NCBI RefSeq assembly: GCF_003449035.1 | Contig: NZ_QRGB01000001.1 | Coordinates: 682,001 to 746,000 of the forward strand | Reading direction: 5' to 3' | DNA from: Pedobacter indicus | Lineage (GTDB): Bacteria > Bacteroidota > Bacteroidia > Sphingobacteriales > Sphingobacteriaceae | Length of the DNA: 64,000 nt | Shown here: positions 8,333 to 17,682 of the stretch, in pieces | How the letters are laid out: the number at the start of each line of letters is the position of its first letter | Position numbering within the stretch: position 1 is the first letter of the stretch | The notes under the pieces: model-generated | What the model was told of the DNA's origin: nothing | Database searches by the model: none | What the model saw: the letters and a program-made list of their open reading frames with translations, nothing else | Translations under genes and position numbers: made by a program

Positions 8333-9664
8333 TTATTTTACAAGATTATTTACTGCATTTCGAACTTTATCAAAGTTAAAAGATTTATAGACTTCATCGA
8401 AGTTTTTCCTGATCTCTGCATTGCAAAGATTACCGATACTCCCTTCGTGAGTGTGTTTTACACTTCGGCTTGGTTGGAACGTGCCTGCCTCAATTGCTCT
8501 GCCAATATTTTTATATGCTTCGCGGAAGGGGACACCCTGTAATACTTCATTATTTACCACCTCTACACTAAATAGGTAATCATATTTAGGATCAGAAAGA
8601 ATATCATCTTTTATAGTAATATGCTCGAGCATATATTTGCATATCAGAAGGCACTCGTTAAGTGACTCAAAAGCTGGGAAGAGGTTTTCTTTTAATAGTT
8701 GCAAATCACGATGATATCCCGATGGAAGATTTGTCGTCATCATCGCAATTTCGTTGGGTAAAGCTTGAATTTTGTTGCAACGCGAACGTATTAATTCGAA
8801 AACATCCGGATTCTTTTTATGGGGCATAATGCTTGATCCTGTAGTCAATTCATCTGGGAATGATATAAAGCCGAAGTTTTGATTGATGTAAAGACAAACG
8901 TCCATCGAAAACTTCGCCAGTGTTGCAGCAATAGATGACATCCCCTGAGCAATAATTCGCTCCGTTTTGCCCCTCCCCATCTGTGCGTACACTACATTGT
9001 AGTTTAAGCTTTCAAAGCCTAGCAATTCGGTCGTAAGCGTTCGGTTCAACGGGAATGATGAACCATAACCCGCTGCGGAGCCTAAAGGGTTTTTGTTGCT
9101 AATTTTCCAAGCGGCCAGCATTAACTCCAGGTCATCAATTAAACTTTCAGCGTATGCCCCAAACCATAATCCGAATGACGAAGGCATAGCTATTTGTAAA
9201 TGCGTATAGCCGGGAATAAGAACATGCTGATACTTTTCACTTAGTTCATTTAATTGATCGAATAAGAGTCTACAGTTGTTAACAATTTTCTCTATTTCTG
9301 ATCGGAAGAAAATCTTTAGATCGACAAGAACCTGATCATTCCTGGAGCGTCCACTATGAATCTTCTTTCCAGCATCGCCTATTCGTTCAGTAAGAAGAAT
9401 CTCTATTTGGGAGTGGATATCCTCCACGTTTTCTTCAATCTTGAAATCACCTTCATCTATTTCCCGGTATATAGTTTTTAGTTCCTTGTGAATATGATCC
9501 AGCTCCTCTGAAGTAAGCAAGCCGATACTCTCCAACATTTGCGTGTGTGCTAGTGATCCTATAACGTCCGCACGGGCGAGCTGATGATCAAGTTCACGAT
9601 CCTTTCCTACCGTAAACTTTTCTACAATATTCTCAATTTGACTGTCCTTTTCCCAGAGTTTCAT
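8333..9664 (-). CDS. argH: argininosuccinate lyase
   Basis: Last enzyme of arginine synthesis: splits argininosuccinate into arginine and fumarate. 443 residues of the fumarase/aspartase superfamily, with the superfamily signature GSSIMPHKKNP at 276-286, HSGRSRNDQV at 103-112 and the catalytic His region GYTHLQIAMP at 152-161. N-terminal MKLWEKDSQIENIVEKFT is the typical ASL start. Located 30 bp after the M20 deacylase in the arginine operon. Confidence 0.96.
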   Translation of the reverse strand: MKLWEKDSQIENIVEKFTVGKDRELDHQLARADVIGSLAHTQMLESIGLLTSEELDHIHKELKTIYREIDEGDFKIEENVEDIHSQIEILLTERIGDAGKKIHSGRSRNDQVLVDLKIFFRSEIEKIVNNCRLLFDQLNELSEKYQHVLIPGYTHLQIAMPSSFGLWFGAYAESLIDDLELMLAAWKISNKNPLGSAAGYGSSFPLNRTLTTELLGFESLNYNVVYAQMGRGKTERIIAQGMSSIAATLAKFSMDVCLYINQNFGFISFPDELTTGSSIMPHKKNPDVFELIRSRCNKIQALPNEIAMMTTNLPSGYHRDLQLLKENLFPAFESLNECLLICKYMLEHITIKDDILSDPKYDYLFSVEVVNNEVLQGVPFREAYKNIGRAIEAGTFQPSRSVKHTHEGSIGNLCNAEIRKNFDEVYKSFNFDKVRNAVNNLVK

Positions 9665-9693: not shown

Positions 9694-10767
9694 TTAAATG
9701 AGGATTGACTTTAACATCTCAATGTATAAATTAATCCCATCCTCAATCTCATCGAGGTAAATATACTCATTTGCCATATGAGATCGGGCTGAATCTCCAG
9801 GTCCTAATTTCAGTGACGGAACATCTAATAATGCCTGATCACTCGTAGTTGGCGAACCATATGTCTTTCTGCCTAGGTCGAGGCCAGCCTGAACGATGGG
9901 GTGCTCCGGTGAGATAGACGACGGTTTGAGTCGCGTAGAGCGGGCTGAGGCATTAGATTTTATATTTGCCTTTATAATCTCCAATACCTCTTCATTTCGA
10001 TAAGCGTCAGTTACCCGAACATCAACGGTGAATTTGCAGCTCGCGGGTACAACATTGTGCTGAGATCCAGCTTCAATGATAGTCACGTTCATGGAGATCG
10101 GACCGAATAAGCTCGATTCTTTTGGAAATTTATAGCTTTTGAACCAGTTGATGTCTGCTATGGCATTGTATATTGCGTTTTCCCCTTCGTTTCGAGCCGC
10201 ATGTCCTGCCTTTCCCATAGCCTCACAGTCAATTACCATTAAGCCGCGCTCAGCAATAGCGAGTTGCATCAAGGTTGGTTCACCAACAATAGCAAAGTCG
10301 AGCTCGCCGATATCCCCCAAGATAGATTCAATGCCGTTTTTTCCTGATATTTCTTCTTCAGCAGTCGCTGCAAAGCAGAGATTGTACTTAAGGGTCCGGC
10401 AATCGTAGAAGTAAAGAAAGACAGTTAAAAGTGAAATAAGGGCTCCACCTGCGTCATTGCTTCCTAGACCATACAATTTTCCATTTTCGACGATGGGCTC
10501 AAAGGGATCATTGGTATACCCTGGATTGGGCTTTACAGTGTCGTGATGGGAATTGAGGAGGATCGTCGGCTTGTTTTTATCAAAATGTTCGTTATAACAC
10601 CAAATATTATTGCCTTTACGGTGTATGAGAACACCTTTAGCTGTTATATATTCAGCTATTTTATCAGCTGTTTCTTCTTCTTCTTTACTGAAAGACGGAA
10701 TGCTGATTAATTGTTTCAAGAGTTCAATGCTCTCATGTGTTAGTGTTTGCAGATCTTCCATCTCCAT
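9694..10767 (-). CDS. M20 family N-acylcitrulline/N-acylornithine deacylase (arginine synthesis)
   Basis: 357-residue di-zinc amidohydrolase of the ArgE/DapE group. Metal site residues are visible: H75-H-D77 in NSHHDTV, bridging D106 in GLGSNDAGG, and the catalytic Glu pair in TAEEEISG (138-140). A dimerisation domain occupies roughly residues 170-280. In operons with an N-acylornithine carbamoyltransferase the deacylase acts on N-acylcitrulline; here N-succinylcitrulline is predicted. The start is the ATG at 10767, which overlaps the proC stop as TGATG; a TTG at 10770 is less likely. Confidence 0.87.
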   Translation of the reverse strand: MEMEDLQTLTHESIELLKQLISIPSFSKEEEETADKIAEYITAKGVLIHRKGNNIWCYNEHFDKNKPTILLNSHHDTVKPNPGYTNDPFEPIVENGKLYGLGSNDAGGALISLLTVFLYFYDCRTLKYNLCFAATAEEEISGKNGIESILGDIGELDFAIVGEPTLMQLAIAERGLMVIDCEAMGKAGHAARNEGENAIYNAIADINWFKSYKFPKESSLFGPISMNVTIIEAGSQHNVVPASCKFTVDVRVTDAYRNEEVLEIIKANIKSNASARSTRLKPSSISPEHPIVQAGLDLGRKTYGSPTTSDQALLDVPSLKLGPGDSARSHMANEYIYLDEIEDGINLYIEMLKSILI

Positions 10768-11576
10768 CAATTTTCATCTTGATAAAGCCCTCCAGCTTTT
10801 CTAGCCGATAACTTTATCCCTTTGATCATGGACGAACTAAAACCATTATGTTCCATCTCATTGAGCCCCGCAATCGTACATCCTTTGGGCGAGGTAACTT
10901 TGTCAATTTCGCTCTCCGGGTGACTCTCCATTTGTAAAAGCAGGTCGGCGGCACCCTTAGCGGTCTGTATCGCCATTTTTAGCGCTTCATCGGCATGAAA
11001 CCCTACTTCCACACCCCCTTGTGATGCAGCTCTGATAGACCTTAAAAAGAAAGCGATTCCGCAAGCACACAAGGCAGTTGCTGCGGTCATAAGATCCTCG
11101 TTTATTCTAATGACTGAACCCACTGTTTCAAATAGACTGGTTACTTCTTTAATTGATTTTGGGTCGGCGTCATCTCCCGCAATACAGGTCATGGACTGCC
11201 CAATAGATATAGCAGTGTTAGGCATTGCGCGTACGACTTGCACTTTTTCACCCAAGCTATCTTTGATATTTTGACAGGTAACTCCAGACACAACCGATAC
11301 AACCAGCTGCTTTTCTGCGTCTATTTTTTTCAAAATTTGATCAATAACTTCATTCAGTTGTTGGGGCAGAACTGCCAATACAATAATGTCGGCATCTGTA
11401 ATGGCTTCGGCATTATCATCGCTTACCAAGTAACCTGCAGCGGCTTCTGAGGCCAGATTTTTAATGTTTCTTCGGGTAAGTGTGATTTCACCCGCTTTGC
11501 AATATGATTTATTTACCAGTCCATTGGCTAATGATCGTCCAATATTCCCCGTTCCGATAATAGTAATTTTTTTCAT
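10767..11576 (-). CDS. proC: pyrroline-5-carboxylate reductase
   Basis: 269 residues; reduces pyrroline-5-carboxylate to proline with NAD(P)H. The Rossmann motif GTGNIGRSLANG is at the N-terminus, VVRAMPNTA marks the family's central segment, and the C-terminal helical dimer domain holds VTSPKGCTIAGL. Its place inside the arginine operon is common in Bacteroidetes and would link proline formation, or recycling of ornithine-derived intermediates, to arginine synthesis. It overlaps the M20 deacylase gene as TGATG and begins 9 bp after argB. Confidence 0.95.
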   Translation of the reverse strand: MKKITIIGTGNIGRSLANGLVNKSYCKAGEITLTRRNIKNLASEAAAGYLVSDDNAEAITDADIIVLAVLPQQLNEVIDQILKKIDAEKQLVVSVVSGVTCQNIKDSLGEKVQVVRAMPNTAISIGQSMTCIAGDDADPKSIKEVTSLFETVGSVIRINEDLMTAATALCACGIAFFLRSIRAASQGGVEVGFHADEALKMAIQTAKGAADLLLQMESHPESEIDKVTSPKGCTIAGLNEMEHNGFSSSMIKGIKLSARKAGGLYQDEN

Positions 11577-11585
11577 TTTTAGATT

Positions 11586-12383
11586 TTATTTCATAATTCG
11601 TGTTCCAAATTGATTTTCGTGCAGAAGAGCTAAATCAGCCGCATGACCTATGAATACGTCCTTTACACCTTTGTTGATCGCATCAAAGGCATTTTGCAGT
11701 TTAGGGATCATTCCGCCTGCTACAGTACCATTCTTTTGAAGCGGAATAAAATCGGCTTGCTGAATTTCCCGAACTACTGATTCTTCATCGTTTACATCTT
11801 TTAATACACCCTTTTTTTCGAAACAATAAATGAGAGATACTGAATATTCAGCGGACAAGGCAACAGCAATACTGGCAGCAATGGTATCTGCGTTGGTATT
11901 TAAGAGCTGACCTTCCCCGTTATGTGTTATTGCGGAAAAAATAGGGGTGAATCCATTTTCAAGGAAAAGAGATAAGGCTTTCTCGTTTACTGAATCTTCG
12001 CTAAGGTCGCCAACCCACCCATAGTCGATTGCTGCTACCGGTCGCTTGACCGCTTTGATAGAATTTCCATCCGCCCCTGATAAGCCAATGGCATTGCAGT
12101 CTAGCGCTTGTAACTGTGCAACAACCCTTTTATTAACCAAGCCTGCATACACCATGGTTACAATGTCTAGCATGGGGTCATCTGTTATTCTTCTACCATC
12201 AACTAATTTGGCTTCAATGCCCATCTGCGAGGCAAAATCTGTAGCAATTTTTCCACCGCCATGAATCAAGATTTTTTTACCCTCAACAGTATTAAAATCT
12301 GCTAAAAATTTTGTTAATAGGGAAGGAGAGTCAATAATATTCCCACCAATTTTGATGATTCGCAGTTTACTCTTGTTATTCAT
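11586..12383 (-). CDS. argB: N-acylglutamate kinase
   Basis: 265-residue amino-acid kinase that phosphorylates the gamma-carboxylate of N-acetyl- (or here possibly N-succinyl-) glutamate. GGNIIDS and HGGGKIATDF near the N-terminus, and the C-terminal NTNADTIAAS plus GGMIPKL motifs, are those of ArgB. Located 3 bp after argF'. It lacks the N-terminal helix seen in arginine-inhibited hexameric ArgB enzymes, so direct feedback inhibition is less certain. Confidence 0.95.
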   Translation of the reverse strand: MNNKSKLRIIKIGGNIIDSPSLLTKFLADFNTVEGKKILIHGGGKIATDFASQMGIEAKLVDGRRITDDPMLDIVTMVYAGLVNKRVVAQLQALDCNAIGLSGADGNSIKAVKRPVAAIDYGWVGDLSEDSVNEKALSLFLENGFTPIFSAITHNGEGQLLNTNADTIAASIAVALSAEYSVSLIYCFEKKGVLKDVNDEESVVREIQQADFIPLQKNGTVAGGMIPKLQNAFDAINKGVKDVFIGHAADLALLHENQFGTRIMK

Positions 12384-12386
12384 AGG

Positions 12387-13337
12387 TTAAGAGCTTAATA
12401 TTTCCGTTAGTACCGTTTGGGCTGCCCACAGCCTGTTGCCAGCTTCTGCCTGGACAAGTGATTGCGGCCCATCAAGTATGCTCGAAGCAAGTTCAACATC
12501 TCTCCGAACAGGTAAACAGTGCATTACTTTTGTGCTTTTCGACAGTTGGTCGGGTTGGATCATCCATTTACTGTCAGTACTGATGACTTTTCCGTAATCT
12601 CTATAGCTCGACCAATTTTTAACATATACAAAATCAGCATCTTTGATCGCTTCTTCTTGATTATAGATGATCTCGCTGTCCTTGGTAAACTCTTCCGCCA
12701 GTTCATACCCTTCAGGGTGTGTAATACAGAAATCGATCATCTCTTCTTTTTCAGCTCGGTTCATCCATTCCGCAAATGAGTTAGGAACTGCCTGCGGAAG
12801 TGCTTTTACATGCGGAGCCCATGTGAGTACTACTTTTGGTTTTTTAACAGTTTTATGTTCCTCAATGGTTAGTAGATCCGCAAAACTCTGTAGTGGATGT
12901 CTTGTTGCACTTTCCAGACTTATCATTGGAACCTTACAAAATTCCATAAATTTGTTAAATAACTCCTCGCTATAATCTTCGTCACGGTTCTTTAATGATG
13001 GGAATGACCGAAAACCTACTACATCGCAATATTGACCGATAACTCCGGCCGCTTCTCTTATGTGCTCTACCGTATTTCCGTCCATTGCAATGCCATCTCG
13101 GGTTTCTAAAGCCCAACCCTCTTGTCCCATGTTCATCACCATAACCTGCATGCCCAAATTAAGCCCGGCTTTTTGTGTACTTAAACGGGTTCGAAGACTT
13201 GGATTCAAAAAGATTAAACCCAAGGTTTTATTCTCACCAAGTTGCTTGTCGCTGAAGGGTGAAGCTTTTATGTCCTTTGCTTTTAGAACAAGTTTTTTTA
13301 GATCGTGAACATCGTTAACAGAGAAGAATTTTTTCAT
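12387..13337 (-). CDS. argF': N-succinylornithine carbamoyltransferase (AOTCase/SOTCase family)
   Basis: 316-residue transcarbamylase. NPSLRTRLS at 45-53 binds carbamoyl phosphate and MHCLPVRRD near the C-terminus is the HCLP loop. It is not an ordinary ornithine transcarbamylase: the W75-containing 70s loop and KNWSSYRDYG belong to the N-acylornithine group. In the Xanthomonas enzyme Glu92 selects N-acetylornithine; published mutants with Pro, Ser, Val or Ala there use N-succinylornithine, as does the Bacteroides fragilis enzyme with Pro90. The aligned residue here, in GNTVEHI, is V90. Succinylornithine specificity is therefore predicted. The gene lies between argD and argB. Confidence 0.9.
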   Translation of the reverse strand: MKKFFSVNDVHDLKKLVLKAKDIKASPFSDKQLGENKTLGLIFLNPSLRTRLSTQKAGLNLGMQVMVMNMGQEGWALETRDGIAMDGNTVEHIREAAGVIGQYCDVVGFRSFPSLKNRDEDYSEELFNKFMEFCKVPMISLESATRHPLQSFADLLTIEEHKTVKKPKVVLTWAPHVKALPQAVPNSFAEWMNRAEKEEMIDFCITHPEGYELAEEFTKDSEIIYNQEEAIKDADFVYVKNWSSYRDYGKVISTDSKWMIQPDQLSKSTKVMHCLPVRRDVELASSILDGPQSLVQAEAGNRLWAAQTVLTEILSS

Positions 13338-13381: not shown

Positions 13382-14515
13382 TTAAGCTTTCTGTAGACGT
13401 TTTTTTAGCGCATCTAAAAAGAAATCAGCATCATCTTTGGTTATATTTAAAGCTGGGAGTAATCTAATAACATTCGGGCTAGCCACCCCAGTAAATATAT
13501 GATCGTCGAATAGAAGCTCCTTTCTGATCTGATTTAATTCTGCCGGAAGATCAATCCCTATCATTAATCCGCGACCTCTTACTTCTTGGATTTTATCTAA
13601 AGTTCGAAGCTCATTTAGCAAATAGGTTCCTATATTTTTCGCGTTTTCGATCAGGCCCTCCTTTTCCATGATTTCTAGAACAGCAATACCCGCAGCACAA
13701 GCTAGGTGGCTGCCACCGAAAGTTGTGCCGAGCATACCGTGCCACGGCTTAAATTTTGGAGATAAGGAAATTCCTGCAATGGGGAACCCGTTGCCCATTC
13801 CTTTTGCCATCGTATAGATGTCTGCTTCACAATGGGAATAGGCTTGCGCATAAAATTGACCTGAACGCCCGTATCCACATTGAACCTCATCGGCTATGAA
13901 GACGGCATCATACGCTGTAGTAAGCTCTCTGATTTTTGCTAAAAATAGTGGTGTCGCTTCTTGGATTCCCCCAACGCCTTGTATGCTTTCTACGATTACG
14001 GCCGAAACTGCGTCGCCATATTCGCTAAATGCCTTTTCAAGTGCATCTTCATCATTAAATGGTAGAAACACAACATCATGTTTATTTACCGCCGAGACAA
14101 TTTTTGGATTATCTGTACAAGCCACCGCCAAGGATGTTCGTCCGTGAAACGCACCTTTGAAAGCGATCACTTTTTTTCGCTTATTGTAAAATGAAGCAAC
14201 TTTAAGTGCATTTTCGTTTGCTTCAGCACCAGTTGAGCAAAGAAACAGCGAATAGTTTTGTTTGCCAGAAAGCTCGCCAAGTAAATCAGCTAATTTTTCT
14301 TGTAGTGGGTTGAGTACCGAATTGGAATAGAAAGCGACTTTGTTTAGTTGATTGGTAAGAGCATCAACATAATGGGGATGAGTATGGCCAATTGAAATAA
14401 CCGCATGGCCACCATATAGGTCAAGGTATTTTTGACCGTGCTTGTCCCAAACATTGAGGCCTGAGGCTCTCTCGATTTCAATTTCGTTTAATGGATATAC
14501 ATCAAAAAGTTTCAT
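13382..14515 (-). CDS. argD: N-acylornithine aminotransferase
   Basis: 377-residue PLP-dependent class III aminotransferase that converts N-acylglutamate semialdehyde to N-acylornithine with glutamate as amino donor. CSTGAEANENALK (93-105) grips the PLP phosphate, ADEVQCGYGRSG carries the PLP-pairing D209, and the Schiff-base lysine is K238 in TMAKGMGNGFPIAG. Position between argC and argF' supports the arginine role rather than GABA or ornithine catabolism. Confidence 0.95.
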   Translation of the reverse strand: MKLFDVYPLNEIEIERASGLNVWDKHGQKYLDLYGGHAVISIGHTHPHYVDALTNQLNKVAFYSNSVLNPLQEKLADLLGELSGKQNYSLFLCSTGAEANENALKVASFYNKRKKVIAFKGAFHGRTSLAVACTDNPKIVSAVNKHDVVFLPFNDEDALEKAFSEYGDAVSAVIVESIQGVGGIQEATPLFLAKIRELTTAYDAVFIADEVQCGYGRSGQFYAQAYSHCEADIYTMAKGMGNGFPIAGISLSPKFKPWHGMLGTTFGGSHLACAAGIAVLEIMEKEGLIENAKNIGTYLLNELRTLDKIQEVRGRGLMIGIDLPAELNQIRKELLFDDHIFTGVASPNVIRLLPALNITKDDADFFLDALKKRLQKA

Positions 14516-14522
14516 TTTATTT

Positions 14523-15506
14523 TTAGTATACGATAGATTTTAGATTTAAGCCTGCTTTTTCGTCCAGACCAAACATCAGATTCATGTTTTGTATTGCCTG
14601 GCCACTGGCTCCTTTTAGTAGGTTGTCTGTCATGCTAATAATAAGTAGAATATCTTGGTGTTTGACTAAATGTACTAGGGCTCGGTTAGTATTTACAACT
14701 TGCTTCAGGTCAATATTCTTCCTGCTGACATGGGTAAAAGGGTGTTCTGCATAGTATGATTCATAAATGCTATAAGCCTCTTCCAAGCTTAAATCACTTT
14801 TTAAATAGTTCGTAGCAAAGATCCCTCTGGGGTAATCACCCCGTTGAGGTATAAAATTAATCTGCGGTTGGACTCCAGATGACTGAGATAAAACCTCGCC
14901 GATTTCAGCAAGATGTCGATGTTGAAATATATTGTAAGCCGACAAATTATTGTTTCTCCAGCTAAAGTGTGTCGTTGCCGTCGGATTTTGTCCTGCACCG
15001 GTGGCTCCGGTTGTCGCATTCACGTGAACCTCGGTTTTTATCAGATCTTTTTGAGCCAAAGGCAATAGGGCAAGCTCAATAGTTGTTGCGAAGCAACCAG
15101 GATTGGCAATGTTTCTTGCAGATTTTATAGCTGCTCGTTGTAATTCGGGCAAGCCATAGACGAACTCACGGTTTTCAAAGCTTGCATTGGCTTCTAGCCT
15201 GAAATCCTGACTTAGATCAATAATACGAACAGTTTCCGCTATTTTGTGATTTGTTAAGAACTTCCGCGCATTTCCATGTCCTACGCACAAAAACAGGACA
15301 TCTATATCTTGCGTCAGGCTGTCGGAGAACCGAAGATCAGTCTCCCCCAATAAATCCAAATGTACATCGGATACCAGATTGCCACCATTGCTTTCGCTGT
15401 GAGCAAATACTATTTCCGCGGAAGGGTGGTTTAAAAGTAACCGGATTAGTTCTCCACCAGTATAGCCAGCGGAACCGATTATGCCTACTTTTACCGGTTG
15501 TTTCAC
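14523..15506 (-). CDS. argC: N-acyl-gamma-glutamyl-phosphate reductase
   Basis: 327 residues; NADPH-dependent reduction of N-acylglutamyl phosphate to the semialdehyde. The N-terminal GSAGYTGGEL motif (11-20) binds the cofactor and C138 in NPGCFATT is the catalytic cysteine. The gene begins with GTG at 15506, overlapping the argG stop as GTGA; no in-frame ATG lies in a sensible place, so translation is probably coupled to argG. Confidence 0.95.
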   Translation of the reverse strand: MKQPVKVGIIGSAGYTGGELIRLLLNHPSAEIVFAHSESNGGNLVSDVHLDLLGETDLRFSDSLTQDIDVLFLCVGHGNARKFLTNHKIAETVRIIDLSQDFRLEANASFENREFVYGLPELQRAAIKSARNIANPGCFATTIELALLPLAQKDLIKTEVHVNATTGATGAGQNPTATTHFSWRNNNLSAYNIFQHRHLAEIGEVLSQSSGVQPQINFIPQRGDYPRGIFATNYLKSDLSLEEAYSIYESYYAEHPFTHVSRKNIDLKQVVNTNRALVHLVKHQDILLIISMTDNLLKGASGQAIQNMNLMFGLDEKAGLNLKSIVY

Positions 15507-16699
15507 TGCTGACCTCCTTTATTCACTTTATGCCAGATCATAACCTGATTTCCAAATATTTTGGAGAAGCCTTTTACATCCTCACCAGTCCACGCGTTAT
15601 TCATTTCACCATAGCTTCCAAATTTATTAGACATTAAGTCGTTCTCAGATTGAACACCGACAATATGAAAACGGTACGGGTTTAACTCTACCGTCACTGT
15701 TCCGTTTACAAATTGTTGAGAACTGGTAAAAAAAGCTTCGATATCACGCATCACGGGATCATGGAACTGCCCTTCATGCAGCCAGTTCCCATAGAACGAG
15801 GCTAGCTGATCTTTCCAACTTAATTGCCATTTCGTGAGCGTATGTTTTTCTAAGGTATGATGGGCCTTTATAATAATAATAGGAGCTGCTGCTTCGAAAC
15901 CAACCCTGCCTTTAATCCCGATAATTGTATCCCCCACATGAATATCGCGACCAATACCATAGGGCTGAGCAATTTCTTGCAGCTTTTGAATTAAAGCAAC
16001 AGGTTTTAGTTGTTCCCCATCCAAAGCCATAGGTTCACCGTTCTTGAAATCAATCCGTACAGTTTTCTTTTCGGTAGCTGTTACTGGTGTTGGCCACGCT
16101 TCTTCAGGTAAAGTTTGATCAGAGGTGAGCGTCTCTTTCCCCCCGACAGATGTTCCCCAAATGCCTTTATTTATTGAATATTTAGCTTTTTCTGCATTAA
16201 GCTCTATCCCTTGTTGTTGTAAATAGGCTATTTCCTCTTCTCGGCTCAGTTTCATATCGCGGATGGGTGTTATAATCTGAACTTCAGGAATTAAGATATT
16301 AAAAATCATATCAAAGCGAACCTGATCATTTCCTGCCCCAGTACTCCCATGAGCTACATAATCAGCGTCTATCTCTTGAACATACTTTGCAATGGCTGTT
16401 GCCTGTGAGACCCTTTCGGCGCTCACAGAAAGAGGGTAAGTCGCATTTTTTAGAACATTGCCAAAAATTAAATACTTAATGCTGGACTCATAATAATTCT
16501 CAGATTCGTCAACCGTATGATGGGAAGTTACGCCCATGGCATAAGCACGCTCTTCAACCTGCTTTAATTCATCCTCGGTAAATCCGCCCGTATTGACCAA
16601 TACGGAATGTACTTCTAGATTTAACTCACGTGTTAGATAAACAACACAATACGAGGTGTCTAAGCCTCCGCTATATGCTAATACTACTTTTTTCTTCAT
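15503..16699 (-). CDS. argG: argininosuccinate synthase
   Basis: 398 residues; joins citrulline and aspartate with ATP to make argininosuccinate. AYSGGLDTSY at 8-17 is the N-type ATP pyrophosphatase loop, and HGSTGAGNDQVRFD and the C-terminal SDLM/SNKFG segments fit the family. The order GNAT-argG-argC-argD-argF'-argB is the standard Bacteroidetes arrangement. The stop codon overlaps the GTG start of argC. Confidence 0.96.
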   Translation of the reverse strand: MKKKVVLAYSGGLDTSYCVVYLTRELNLEVHSVLVNTGGFTEDELKQVEERAYAMGVTSHHTVDESENYYESSIKYLIFGNVLKNATYPLSVSAERVSQATAIAKYVQEIDADYVAHGSTGAGNDQVRFDMIFNILIPEVQIITPIRDMKLSREEEIAYLQQQGIELNAEKAKYSINKGIWGTSVGGKETLTSDQTLPEEAWPTPVTATEKKTVRIDFKNGEPMALDGEQLKPVALIQKLQEIAQPYGIGRDIHVGDTIIGIKGRVGFEAAAPIIIIKAHHTLEKHTLTKWQLSWKDQLASFYGNWLHEGQFHDPVMRDIEAFFTSSQQFVNGTVTVELNPYRFHIVGVQSENDLMSNKFGSYGEMNNAWTGEDVKGFSKIFGNQVMIWHKVNKGGQQ

Positions 16700-16715: not shown

Positions 16716-17408
16716 TTAATACGGAATCATTGTAAAAAGCATTTTTGTTGAGCGTCTCAGTTTAATCCCAATCCTTTTTAAAAGAGAGGATTTCTTTGTA
16801 ATTTGTTTTAGCCTCTCTCTCGCGCGTGCTTTTTCTTCGATTTTGAGACGAATCTCCCTCTCCTTCTCAGTCGGGTCCCAAAGCATTGCGGTACAGAGGC
16901 AGTTCTTGCGCCCTTTACTTTGTAAAACATCGTAATTTACGCAGCTTTGGCAGCCTTTCCAAAATTCTTCATCCTGGGTCAGTTCAGAGTAAGGTACAGG
17001 CTCATATCCTAGGTCTGAATTGATTTTCATTACGGCAAAGCCCGTAGTAAGTCCAAAAATCTTTGACTTAGGATATTTTTCTCTCGAAAGATTGAAGATC
17101 CTCTTCTTGATGGCCTTCGCCAAACCGACATTGCGGTAGTCGGGGTTGACAATTAGGCCTGAATTCGCTACGTATTCGCCATGGCTAAATGTTTCTATGT
17201 AGCAAAAGCCTGCCCATTCGGCAGTTTCTTTCGTCAATGCAATGACGGCTTTGCCCTCACGCATTTTTTGACTTACATATTCTGGTTTCCTACGAGCTAT
17301 ACCGGTTCCTCGGGCTTTTGCCGATTCCGCCATTTCCTCACAAATTTGTTCAGCGTATATGACATGCTGTTCTGTTGCAGGGATCACAACAAAATCTGAA
17401 AGATTCAT
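16716..17408 (-). CDS. GNAT acyltransferase at the head of the arginine operon
   Basis: 230 residues from the ATG at 17408 (a TTG two codons earlier is possible). The GNAT acetyl/acyl-CoA loop is YRNVGLAKAIKK at 91-102. Residues 153-172 hold four cysteines spaced C-x2-C-x13-C-x-C, a possible metal site, and the C-terminal 45 residues are a charged helix and basic tail. As first gene of the operon it is the best candidate for the missing glutamate N-acyltransferase, presumably using succinyl-CoA given the carbamoyltransferase. Function is inferred from position. Confidence 0.85.
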   Translation of the reverse strand: MNLSDFVVIPATEQHVIYAEQICEEMAESAKARGTGIARRKPEYVSQKMREGKAVIALTKETAEWAGFCYIETFSHGEYVANSGLIVNPDYRNVGLAKAIKKRIFNLSREKYPKSKIFGLTTGFAVMKINSDLGYEPVPYSELTQDEEFWKGCQSCVNYDVLQSKGRKNCLCTAMLWDPTEKEREIRLKIEEKARARERLKQITKKSSLLKRIGIKLRRSTKMLFTMIPY

Positions 17409-17477
17409 TGACAAAGACTCATTAATTGTTTACTACAATTGTTAATTAATAATTTTAGTGGGTGCTTCCGCAAGATG

Positions 17478-17533
17478 GGGCTTATCTGAGGAAGAAGAAA
17501 GAAGATTGCCAAATACTAAGCCCTTGGCTTTAG
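17478..17533 (-). promoter_or_regulatory. two mutually exclusive RNA hairpins in the arg leader
   Basis: Hairpin A pairs AAGCC (17530-17526) with GGCTT (17522-17518) across a 3-base loop and extends past one bulge to 17533/17516. Hairpin B pairs GGGCTTA (17523-17517) with TAAGCCC (17484-17478). Both use the same GGCTT bases, which overlap the leader peptide's final codons. No U-tract terminator follows; a pyrimidine-rich run at 17490-17506 separates the arms. Confidence 0.5.
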
Positions 17534-17650
17534 CGGTCGTCGGACTCTAAAGATCAGATTATCAATAAAACGGAAATTACAAATATCAGCCTGCAGACGA
17601 TGCTCTGACGTCTGATTGGAGTGATATGTATCGTTTAATAATAATTCCAT
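17516..17650 (-). CDS. putative 44-residue arginine leader peptide
   Basis: An ATG at 17650 opens a 44-codon frame ending TAG at 17516. It begins about 20 nt after the predicted transcription start and ends 107 bp before the first arg gene. Six of 44 codons are Arg (CGT, CGT, AGA, CGA, CGA, AGG), four in the last ten, giving the tail RVRRPLKPRA. The last codons and stop form one arm of two competing hairpins. This is the layout of an amino-acid-sensing leader peptide. Conservation has not been tested, and the ORF could be fortuitous. Confidence 0.5.
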   Translation of the reverse strand: MELLLNDTYHSNQTSEHRLQADICNFRFIDNLIFRVRRPLKPRA

Positions 17651-17662
17651 TGTCTTTTTGAA

Positions 17663-17682
17663 GTGTCAAAGACACAAAGGTA
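17663..17682 (-). promoter_or_regulatory. promoter of the arg operon with palindrome at the start site
   Basis: On the minus strand TACCTTTG at 17682-17675 matches the Bacteroidetes -7 box, predicting a start near 17669 and a 5' leader of about 260 nt. GTGTC-N3-GACAC (17663-17675) overlaps the end of the box and the start site and could bind a repressor or form an mRNA 5' hairpin. The -33 element is weak. Confidence 0.5.

Follow-up and report, generated by a model that had tools for sequence, protein, structure and literature searches.

A conserved arginine-codon leader before the arginine operon of Pedobacter indicus and its RNA pairings in sister genera

The arginine operon and its leader ORF

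The window, the whole 64,000-nucleotide stretch of Pedobacter indicus DNA analysed here, carries on its minus strand an operon for arginine biosynthesis that opens with a GNAT-like gene and runs through argG, argC, an argD-like aminotransferase gene, an N-acetylornithine-type carbamoyltransferase gene and argB to an ArgE/DapE-type deacylase gene and argH (Table 1), with proC, named by eye, lying between argB and the deacylase gene. The GNAT-like protein may be the missing first enzyme of the pathway, an acyl-glutamate synthase. The GNAT-like gene was found in 374 of the 399 genomes of the family. It is also kept beside the arginine leader described below across the family, despite Pfam and NCBIfam matches that fall below the cut-offs.

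Table 1. Features of the leader region and of the arginine operon in the window, with the basis of each assignment.
Feature	Position	Strand	Basis
Promoter -7 box TAnnTTTG, Bacteroidota type	17675..17682	-	sequence; enrichment upstream of related leaders
Leader ORF, 44 codons, C-terminus RVRRPLKPRA-stop	17516..17650	-	sequence; conservation in relatives
CGA-CGA-CCG (codons 37-39), probable stall site and, in sister genera, 5' strand of P3 as well	17534..17542	-	codon conservation; P3 of sister genera
P1 5' arm GCCAA	17524..17528	-	P1 of relatives; P1 nested-fold probability 0.28 in the window
Kissing segment GGGCUU (Arg-Ala-stop region, P1 loop); 5' side of the second pairing first proposed	17518..17523	-	kiss of relatives
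P1 3' arm UUGGC, stop codon in P1 loop	17508..17512	-	P1 of relatives
H2 hairpin AGAU-AAGCCCC-AUCU; 3' side of the second pairing first proposed	17473..17487	-	sequence
UUGUC by the GNAT start, weak possible P3 partner of GACGA (17541-17537)	17410..17414	-	nested fold
GNAT-like first operon gene, ATG at 17408 by homology	16716..17408	-	best Pfam and NCBIfam matches below cut-offs
argG	15503..16699	-	NCBIfam, above cut-off
argC	14523..15506	-	NCBIfam, above cut-off
argD-like aminotransferase	13382..14515	-	below cut-off
N-acetylornithine-type carbamoyltransferase	12387..13337	-	below cut-off
argB	11586..12383	-	NCBIfam, above cut-off
ArgE/DapE-type deacylase	9694..10770	-	below cut-off
argH	8333..9664	-	NCBIfam, above cut-off

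Directly before the operon stands a short, translated ORF that is rich in codons for the end product of the pathway. A first-pass annotation of the window, made from its letters alone, had described this ORF and a promoter box upstream of it, and both are present in the sequence. TAnnTTTG is the -7 box of Bacteroidota-type promoters, and it occurs at most 110 nt upstream of 82 of the 148 unique leaders collected in this study, against 11.9 expected from mononucleotide shuffles. A box of the TAnnTTTG type is also named for Bacteroidota in the available text of PMC9723704. The ORF contains six Arg codons, as had been claimed, four of them among the last ten, with AGA as codon 35 and AGG as codon 43; the stall site that had been proposed at Arg codons 35-38 holds for codons 35, 37 and 38, codon 36 being Val. 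The leader pattern occurs once in its own genome, at this locus, and across 41 genomes it occurs at most once per genome (8 genomes were positive), with no occurrence in the reversed control. The leader RNA of the window folds like shuffled sequence (z = 0.00), so that a 44-codon ORF together with short pairings is not beyond chance when taken alone, and the case therefore rests on conservation in relatives.

Conservation of the leader and of its CGA codons

All of the 110 loci examined first (L002-L111) have an Arg-ended leader before this GNAT-like gene. A rule, namely an ORF that starts with ATG and has Arg close to its end, recovered 108 of them; the other two, L044 and L045, were read by eye, start with GTG and likewise have 44 codons. 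A second set of loci gave a leader in 59 of 60, the single miss being L161, where the GNAT start is as in L044. Because the two genome collections that supplied the loci overlap, the 110 loci do not stand for as many species. Of the 179 leader records 148 are unique, and the counts were made on unique rows. Exactly 44 residues are present in 73 of the 91 unique leaders of the RRP type, and in these 91 the distance between the leader's stop and the GNAT start ranges from 86 to 149 nt, in all three phases. The N-terminal 32 codons diverge widely among leaders, and among the codons of this part with a single difference 213 are synonymous against 136.2 expected, a count drawn from 58 overlapping and thus not independent leader pairs. 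The inspection of relatives' upstream regions that the first-pass annotation had suggested as a check thus bore out the ORF and its Arg-codon ending, and it also brought out compensatory changes, in sister genera. The comparisons show that the leader ORF is real, translated and conserved.

The codons at the end of the leader were then compared in the 91 unique RRP-type leaders. The first CGA is kept in 91 and the second in 89, the two Pro residues are kept in 90 and 91 with all four Pro codons in use, Arg stands two positions ahead of CGA-CGA in 85 and across them uses all six of its codons, and the ending PR[A/V/T/F]-stop is kept although its codons vary. Since CGA-CGA is almost invariant while the other Arg and Pro codons vary, selection acts on the amino acids and, separately, on the codon CGA. 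Among the 40 tRNA genes detected in the genome the only Arg anticodons are tct, acg, ccg and cct; CGA must therefore be read by the acg tRNA, as no other matching Arg anticodon is among them. An acg tRNA reads CGA by inosine-adenine wobble. CGA accounts for 19.7% of the Arg codons in the genes of the window, which rules it out as a rare codon. In the Salmonella his leader, the slow Arg-Arg pairs include CGA ones according to the available text of PMC4046918.

We also searched for the repressor through which arginine operons are usually controlled. The C-domain of ArgR (PF02863) was found in 0 of 60 genomes, the organism's own included, by a search that as a control recovered it in 8 of 14 well-known genomes; by this C-domain search the genome lacks the ArgR of an ArgR-controlled arginine operon.

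Outside the family, the GNAT gene is unusually similar (70-76%) in Flavobacteriaceae, namely Myroides, Paenimyroides and Flavobacterium sp. (loci L054, L055, L058, L067, L072, L079, L082, L083, L085 and L089-L093), where the leaders have 33-37 codons and other endings, for example SRSSRSRA or PIRARA; the similarity may reflect either transfer or shared descent of the GNAT and leader unit. In more distant Bacteroidota, 24 of 62 loci are preceded by an ORF in which Arg makes up three or more of the final nine residues, against 0.8 expected, and 38 of the 62 are without such an ORF by the same rule. The endings of these distant leaders are unrelated to one another and their Arg codons are lineage-typical. 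Loci L225-L273 use CGG runs, AGG, or CGC/CGU with CCG-UAA-GGG, as if each lineage watched one Arg tRNA.

RNA pairings in the sister genera and in the window

In the sister genera, which are Sphingobacterium, Parapedobacter, Olivibacter and one further genus (G019), the last nine leader codons join three pairings. In P1, UGCC(Y) pairs with (R)GGCA directly after the stop, with the stop codon in the P1 loop; in P2, CGRGCU in the P1 loop forms a kissing contact with the loop of hairpin H2, which lies further downstream; and in P3, CGACCY, which is part of CGA-CGA-CCN, pairs with RGGUC(G), ending 6-11 nt before the GNAT start. RGGUC is present at the GNAT start in 57 of the 60 unique leaders of the four genera, the exceptions being L005, L170 and L177, and the GTG-started L044 and L045 standing outside this count. 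As the group of 57 was selected by this motif, the presence of RGGUC is no test, and the covariation is.

The alignment used for this test comprises 59 rows, the 57 RGGUC leaders and two of the window's genus. Across it 89.5% of the cells are paired, with the kissing helix at 97.9%, and 138 cells are changed on both sides against 46.4 in shuffles, a value reached by 0 of 500 shuffles; sliding the pairing partners strongly lowers the both-side changes. The Parapedobacter partner of P3 is off by one column in the alignment, which lowers the P3 count. Compensatory changes occur at third codon positions in P3 (Pro CCU with AGG or CCC with GGG), in the kiss (Arg CGA with U or CGG with C) and in P1 (Pro CCU/CCC). 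In 52 of the 59 leaders the stop region can kiss a hairpin loop whose stem has 5 bp or more, against 5.0 expected when the segment is shuffled, and in a second control, with other stretches of the same leaders, loop contact was seen in 66 of 472. The nested-fold probability of P3 has a mean of 0.95 in the 57 RGGUC leaders and exceeds 0.5 in 56 of them, compared with 0.61 for random synonyms of the three codons, and in the four minimum-energy folds tried (L033, L040, L051 and L061) P3 encloses P1 and H2 every time. P3 is mismatched in L004 and in the two CCA leaders, L062 and L171. Changes were counted on a tree of the GNAT gene built from the 47 rows whose sequence sufficed. They number 5 for the pair at the Pro position of P3 and 4 for the kiss pair 24-85, so that few independent compensations underlie the long-range contacts; in H2, the four tested pairs have 4-12 changes per side.

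The comparison shows that CGA-CGA-CCN is almost invariant and that the last nine codons double as pairing RNA in the sister genera. P3 alone is an insufficient explanation for the invariance, because CGA-CGA is invariant also in genera without P3. Two further observations concern other hairpins in relatives. In many Sphingobacterium leaders (L046-L081) the GNAT start codon lies within a small hairpin right after the P3 strand, for example CAUC-UUA-GAUG in L051. The leaders of L010, L013, L015, L023, L030 and L111 end in Arg-Arg-stop and have a GACGC-UGAU-GCGUC or similar hairpin around the stop, which is another dual-coded end.

For the window, two pairings had been proposed, AAGCC with GGCTT (17530-17526 and 17522-17518) and GGGCTTA with TAAGCCC (17523-17517 and 17484-17478), and both are indeed complementary. 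The first has to be given up as a conserved stem: relatives outside the genus read UUGCC, AUGCC or CUGCC at this place, and their UGCC(Y) has its partner, (R)GGCA, beyond the stop; the AAGCC/GGCUU hairpin was rejected. The second coincides with the conserved kiss, in which the region of the stop codon contacts the downstream hairpin loop. The two had also been taken as alternatives, for which the relatives give no support: in them P1 and the kiss can form together, as the bases that kiss sit in the P1 loop. Both the window and the sister species L003 have P1 and, in a hairpin loop, a complement of the stop region; in the window this is the H2 loop (17483-17477, minus strand) with the kissing partner AAGCCC, and the H2 stem has 4 bp there versus 11 bp in L003. 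P3 is at best weak in the window, its nested-fold probability of 0.35 not being above that of synonymous versions of the window's leader, which reach 0.36, and in L003 the probability is 0.05. The pairing of a leader segment with the GNAT initiation region, which covaries in the sister genera, is thus at 0.35 here, and regulatory codons within pairing RNA segments, seen in the sister genera, are weakly represented in the window. Judged by these comparisons, the window has kept the sensing half, with a weak P1, a weak H2 and an unconvincing P3.

Output, mechanism and rival explanations

As the first-pass annotation had noted, no terminator is visible in the window: a search for terminator-like sites on this strand found none, neither the window nor L003 has a terminator-like hairpin before the GNAT gene, and the window is therefore without the intrinsic terminator between leader and first gene that marks the trp/his type. 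A terminator-like hairpin immediately precedes the GNAT gene in 18 of the 32 leaders that do not carry RGGUC, a group to which L005, L170, L177 and the window's genus belong; the expected number is 2.2. The counts are 8 of 19 for Mucilaginibacter-type leaders (1.2 expected) and 3 of 9 for leaders ending in RR (0.9 expected), and the remaining 59 leaders with CGACGACC give 20 against 8.1, a weaker excess on which we do not build. When the window's genus is left out, the 30 leaders without RGGUC have P1 at a probability above 0.5 in 21 cases and P3 above 0.5 only in L011 and L018, and the kiss, at 3 of 30 against 1.3 expected, is near chance and not supported in them. The same leader appears to be joined to different output parts, because terminator-like hairpins stand in for P3 and the kiss in other genera, and as they occupy the place of P3 in Pedobacter-like genera, output there is probably transcriptional.

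A transcriptional output may then be considered for the window itself, with the same leader acting through a Rho-dependent or weak intrinsic stop and the pairing at the GNAT start having no role. This reading, which we hold to be a real possibility although not the favoured one, draws on the unconvincing P3 of both the window and L003 and on the terminator-like hairpins of the leaders without RGGUC, but the window and L003 are themselves without such a hairpin, and both possess P1 and the kissing loop that are common to the translational genera. The first-pass annotation had left the outcome as Rho-dependent or translational, and of these the translational part stands as a possibility, suggested by the sister genera.

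Whatever the output, we consider it rather likely that the leader is a ribosome-mediated attenuator of the arginine operon that senses charged tRNA-Arg. The attenuation reading of the first-pass annotation holds as far as a conserved Arg-codon leader before the arginine operon and the absence of the ArgR C-domain from the genomes searched are concerned, and it is not supported in its first pairing and its alternative folds. The footprint of a stalled ribosome extends about a dozen bases beyond the stall codons. When arginyl-tRNA is scarce, the ribosome would slow or stop at CGA37/CGA38 and would cover CGA-CGA-CCN together with the dozen or so bases beyond it. Covering CGA-CGA-CCN would, in Sphingobacterium, Parapedobacter and Olivibacter, block P3 and free RGGUC by the GNAT start, and the operon would be translated. 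When arginine is plentiful, the ribosome would reach the stop and leave, whereupon P1 would form, its loop would kiss H2 and P3 would close the start region. Most likely, then, the leader serves to switch on arginine synthesis whenever the ribosomes have too little arginine. We are evenly divided on a more specific proposal, in which the Arg codons would be the RNA strand that locks the start region of the first gene, the loop with the stop codon would kiss a second loop and the ribosome awaiting arginyl-tRNA would be the key, with peptide and lock written in the same nine codons and co-evolving via third positions, and with the lock surviving only partly in the window's genus.

The conserved Pro residues and the constant length are not needed by plain codon sensing and count against this model. 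They point instead to the main rival, a ligand-sensing arrest peptide (transcriptional output comes second, for the window), in which free arginine or a related metabolite and the nascent RRPxxPR[A/V] tail would halt the ribosome at the stop and the place of arrest would set the RNA fold. SpeFL is an arrest peptide that responds to ornithine and, like the present leader, has conserved C-terminal residues beside its stop codon. TnaC, as described in the available text, shares this feature and gives the precedent with tryptophan. The leader does have the conserved C-terminal residues expected of an arrest peptide, both Pro residues and the final PR[A/V/T/F]-stop being kept despite codon variation at a length of nearly always 44 residues. 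Two findings speak against arrest and set the leader apart from TnaC and SpeFL: CGA-CGA is kept at the level of the codon, and other families end Arg-rich but unrelated (TRRRP, RRPLRRR, RRRRYFFRV), as expected of codon sensing. Because the distant leaders are Arg-rich with unrelated endings and lineage-typical Arg codons, the comparison speaks for arginyl-tRNA as the sensed signal rather than for a single fixed arrest peptide across the phylum, and we regard the arrest peptide as unlikely. A structured RNA, riboswitch-like or protein-binding and with an incidental ORF, would account for the strong covariation of P1, H2, the kiss and P3 in the sister genera but is highly improbable in view of the near-fixed ORF length with a divergent N-terminus, the GTG at the same distance in both ATG-less leaders, the synonymous excess with free codon choice at conserved Arg and Pro, and the Rfam 15 search of 16 related loci and of 2001 bases of the window, in which no family came close to its cut-off.

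Transcription attenuation by leader peptides of the trp/his type is well known for amino-acid operons. The arginyl-tRNA attenuator proposed here resembles these systems in its short ORF with end-product codons before a biosynthetic operon and, in Pedobacter-like genera, in the terminator-like hairpins before the first gene, whereas it differs in the amino acid, in using CGA-CGA and not a long run, in its conserved non-Arg residues, in the window's lack of a terminator and in the pairing partner that the sister genera have at the start of the first gene. With erm-type translational attenuation the sister genera would share a leader ORF that pairs with the start region of the next gene, which a stalled ribosome is to open, but the signal would be an amino acid and not a drug, the stall codons would themselves be the locking strand, and there are kissing loops. 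The available texts of PMC1183508 and PMC8274638 cover leader-peptide transcription attenuation of amino-acid operons and erm-type translational attenuation, respectively. Within the same phylum, strong clues of leader peptide attenuation upstream of amino-acid operons have been reported for Flavobacterium psychrophilum (PMC9723704), the available text of which names no arginine leader, codons or pairings, although its Table S7 may list one, and for Bacteroides thetaiotaomicron the available text of PMC7366714 mentions small ORFs that resemble leaders. We recognised no description of an arginine leader in Bacteroidota in the literature covered, which consisted of main texts and included few subscription journals. 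We rate the general kind, ribosome-mediated leader attenuation, as known, and an arginine leader with such pairings as new as a variant.

Taken together, the leader offers an answer to how arginine synthesis may be controlled in bacteria in which the ArgR C-domain is not found, and the idea reaches beyond the family, given the Arg-rich ORFs at distant Bacteroidota loci. Here selection on the peptide and selection on the RNA meet in nine codons, a compact case that lends itself to testing, and a single one of the synonymous Arg codons, CGA, is selected for without being rare in the genome.
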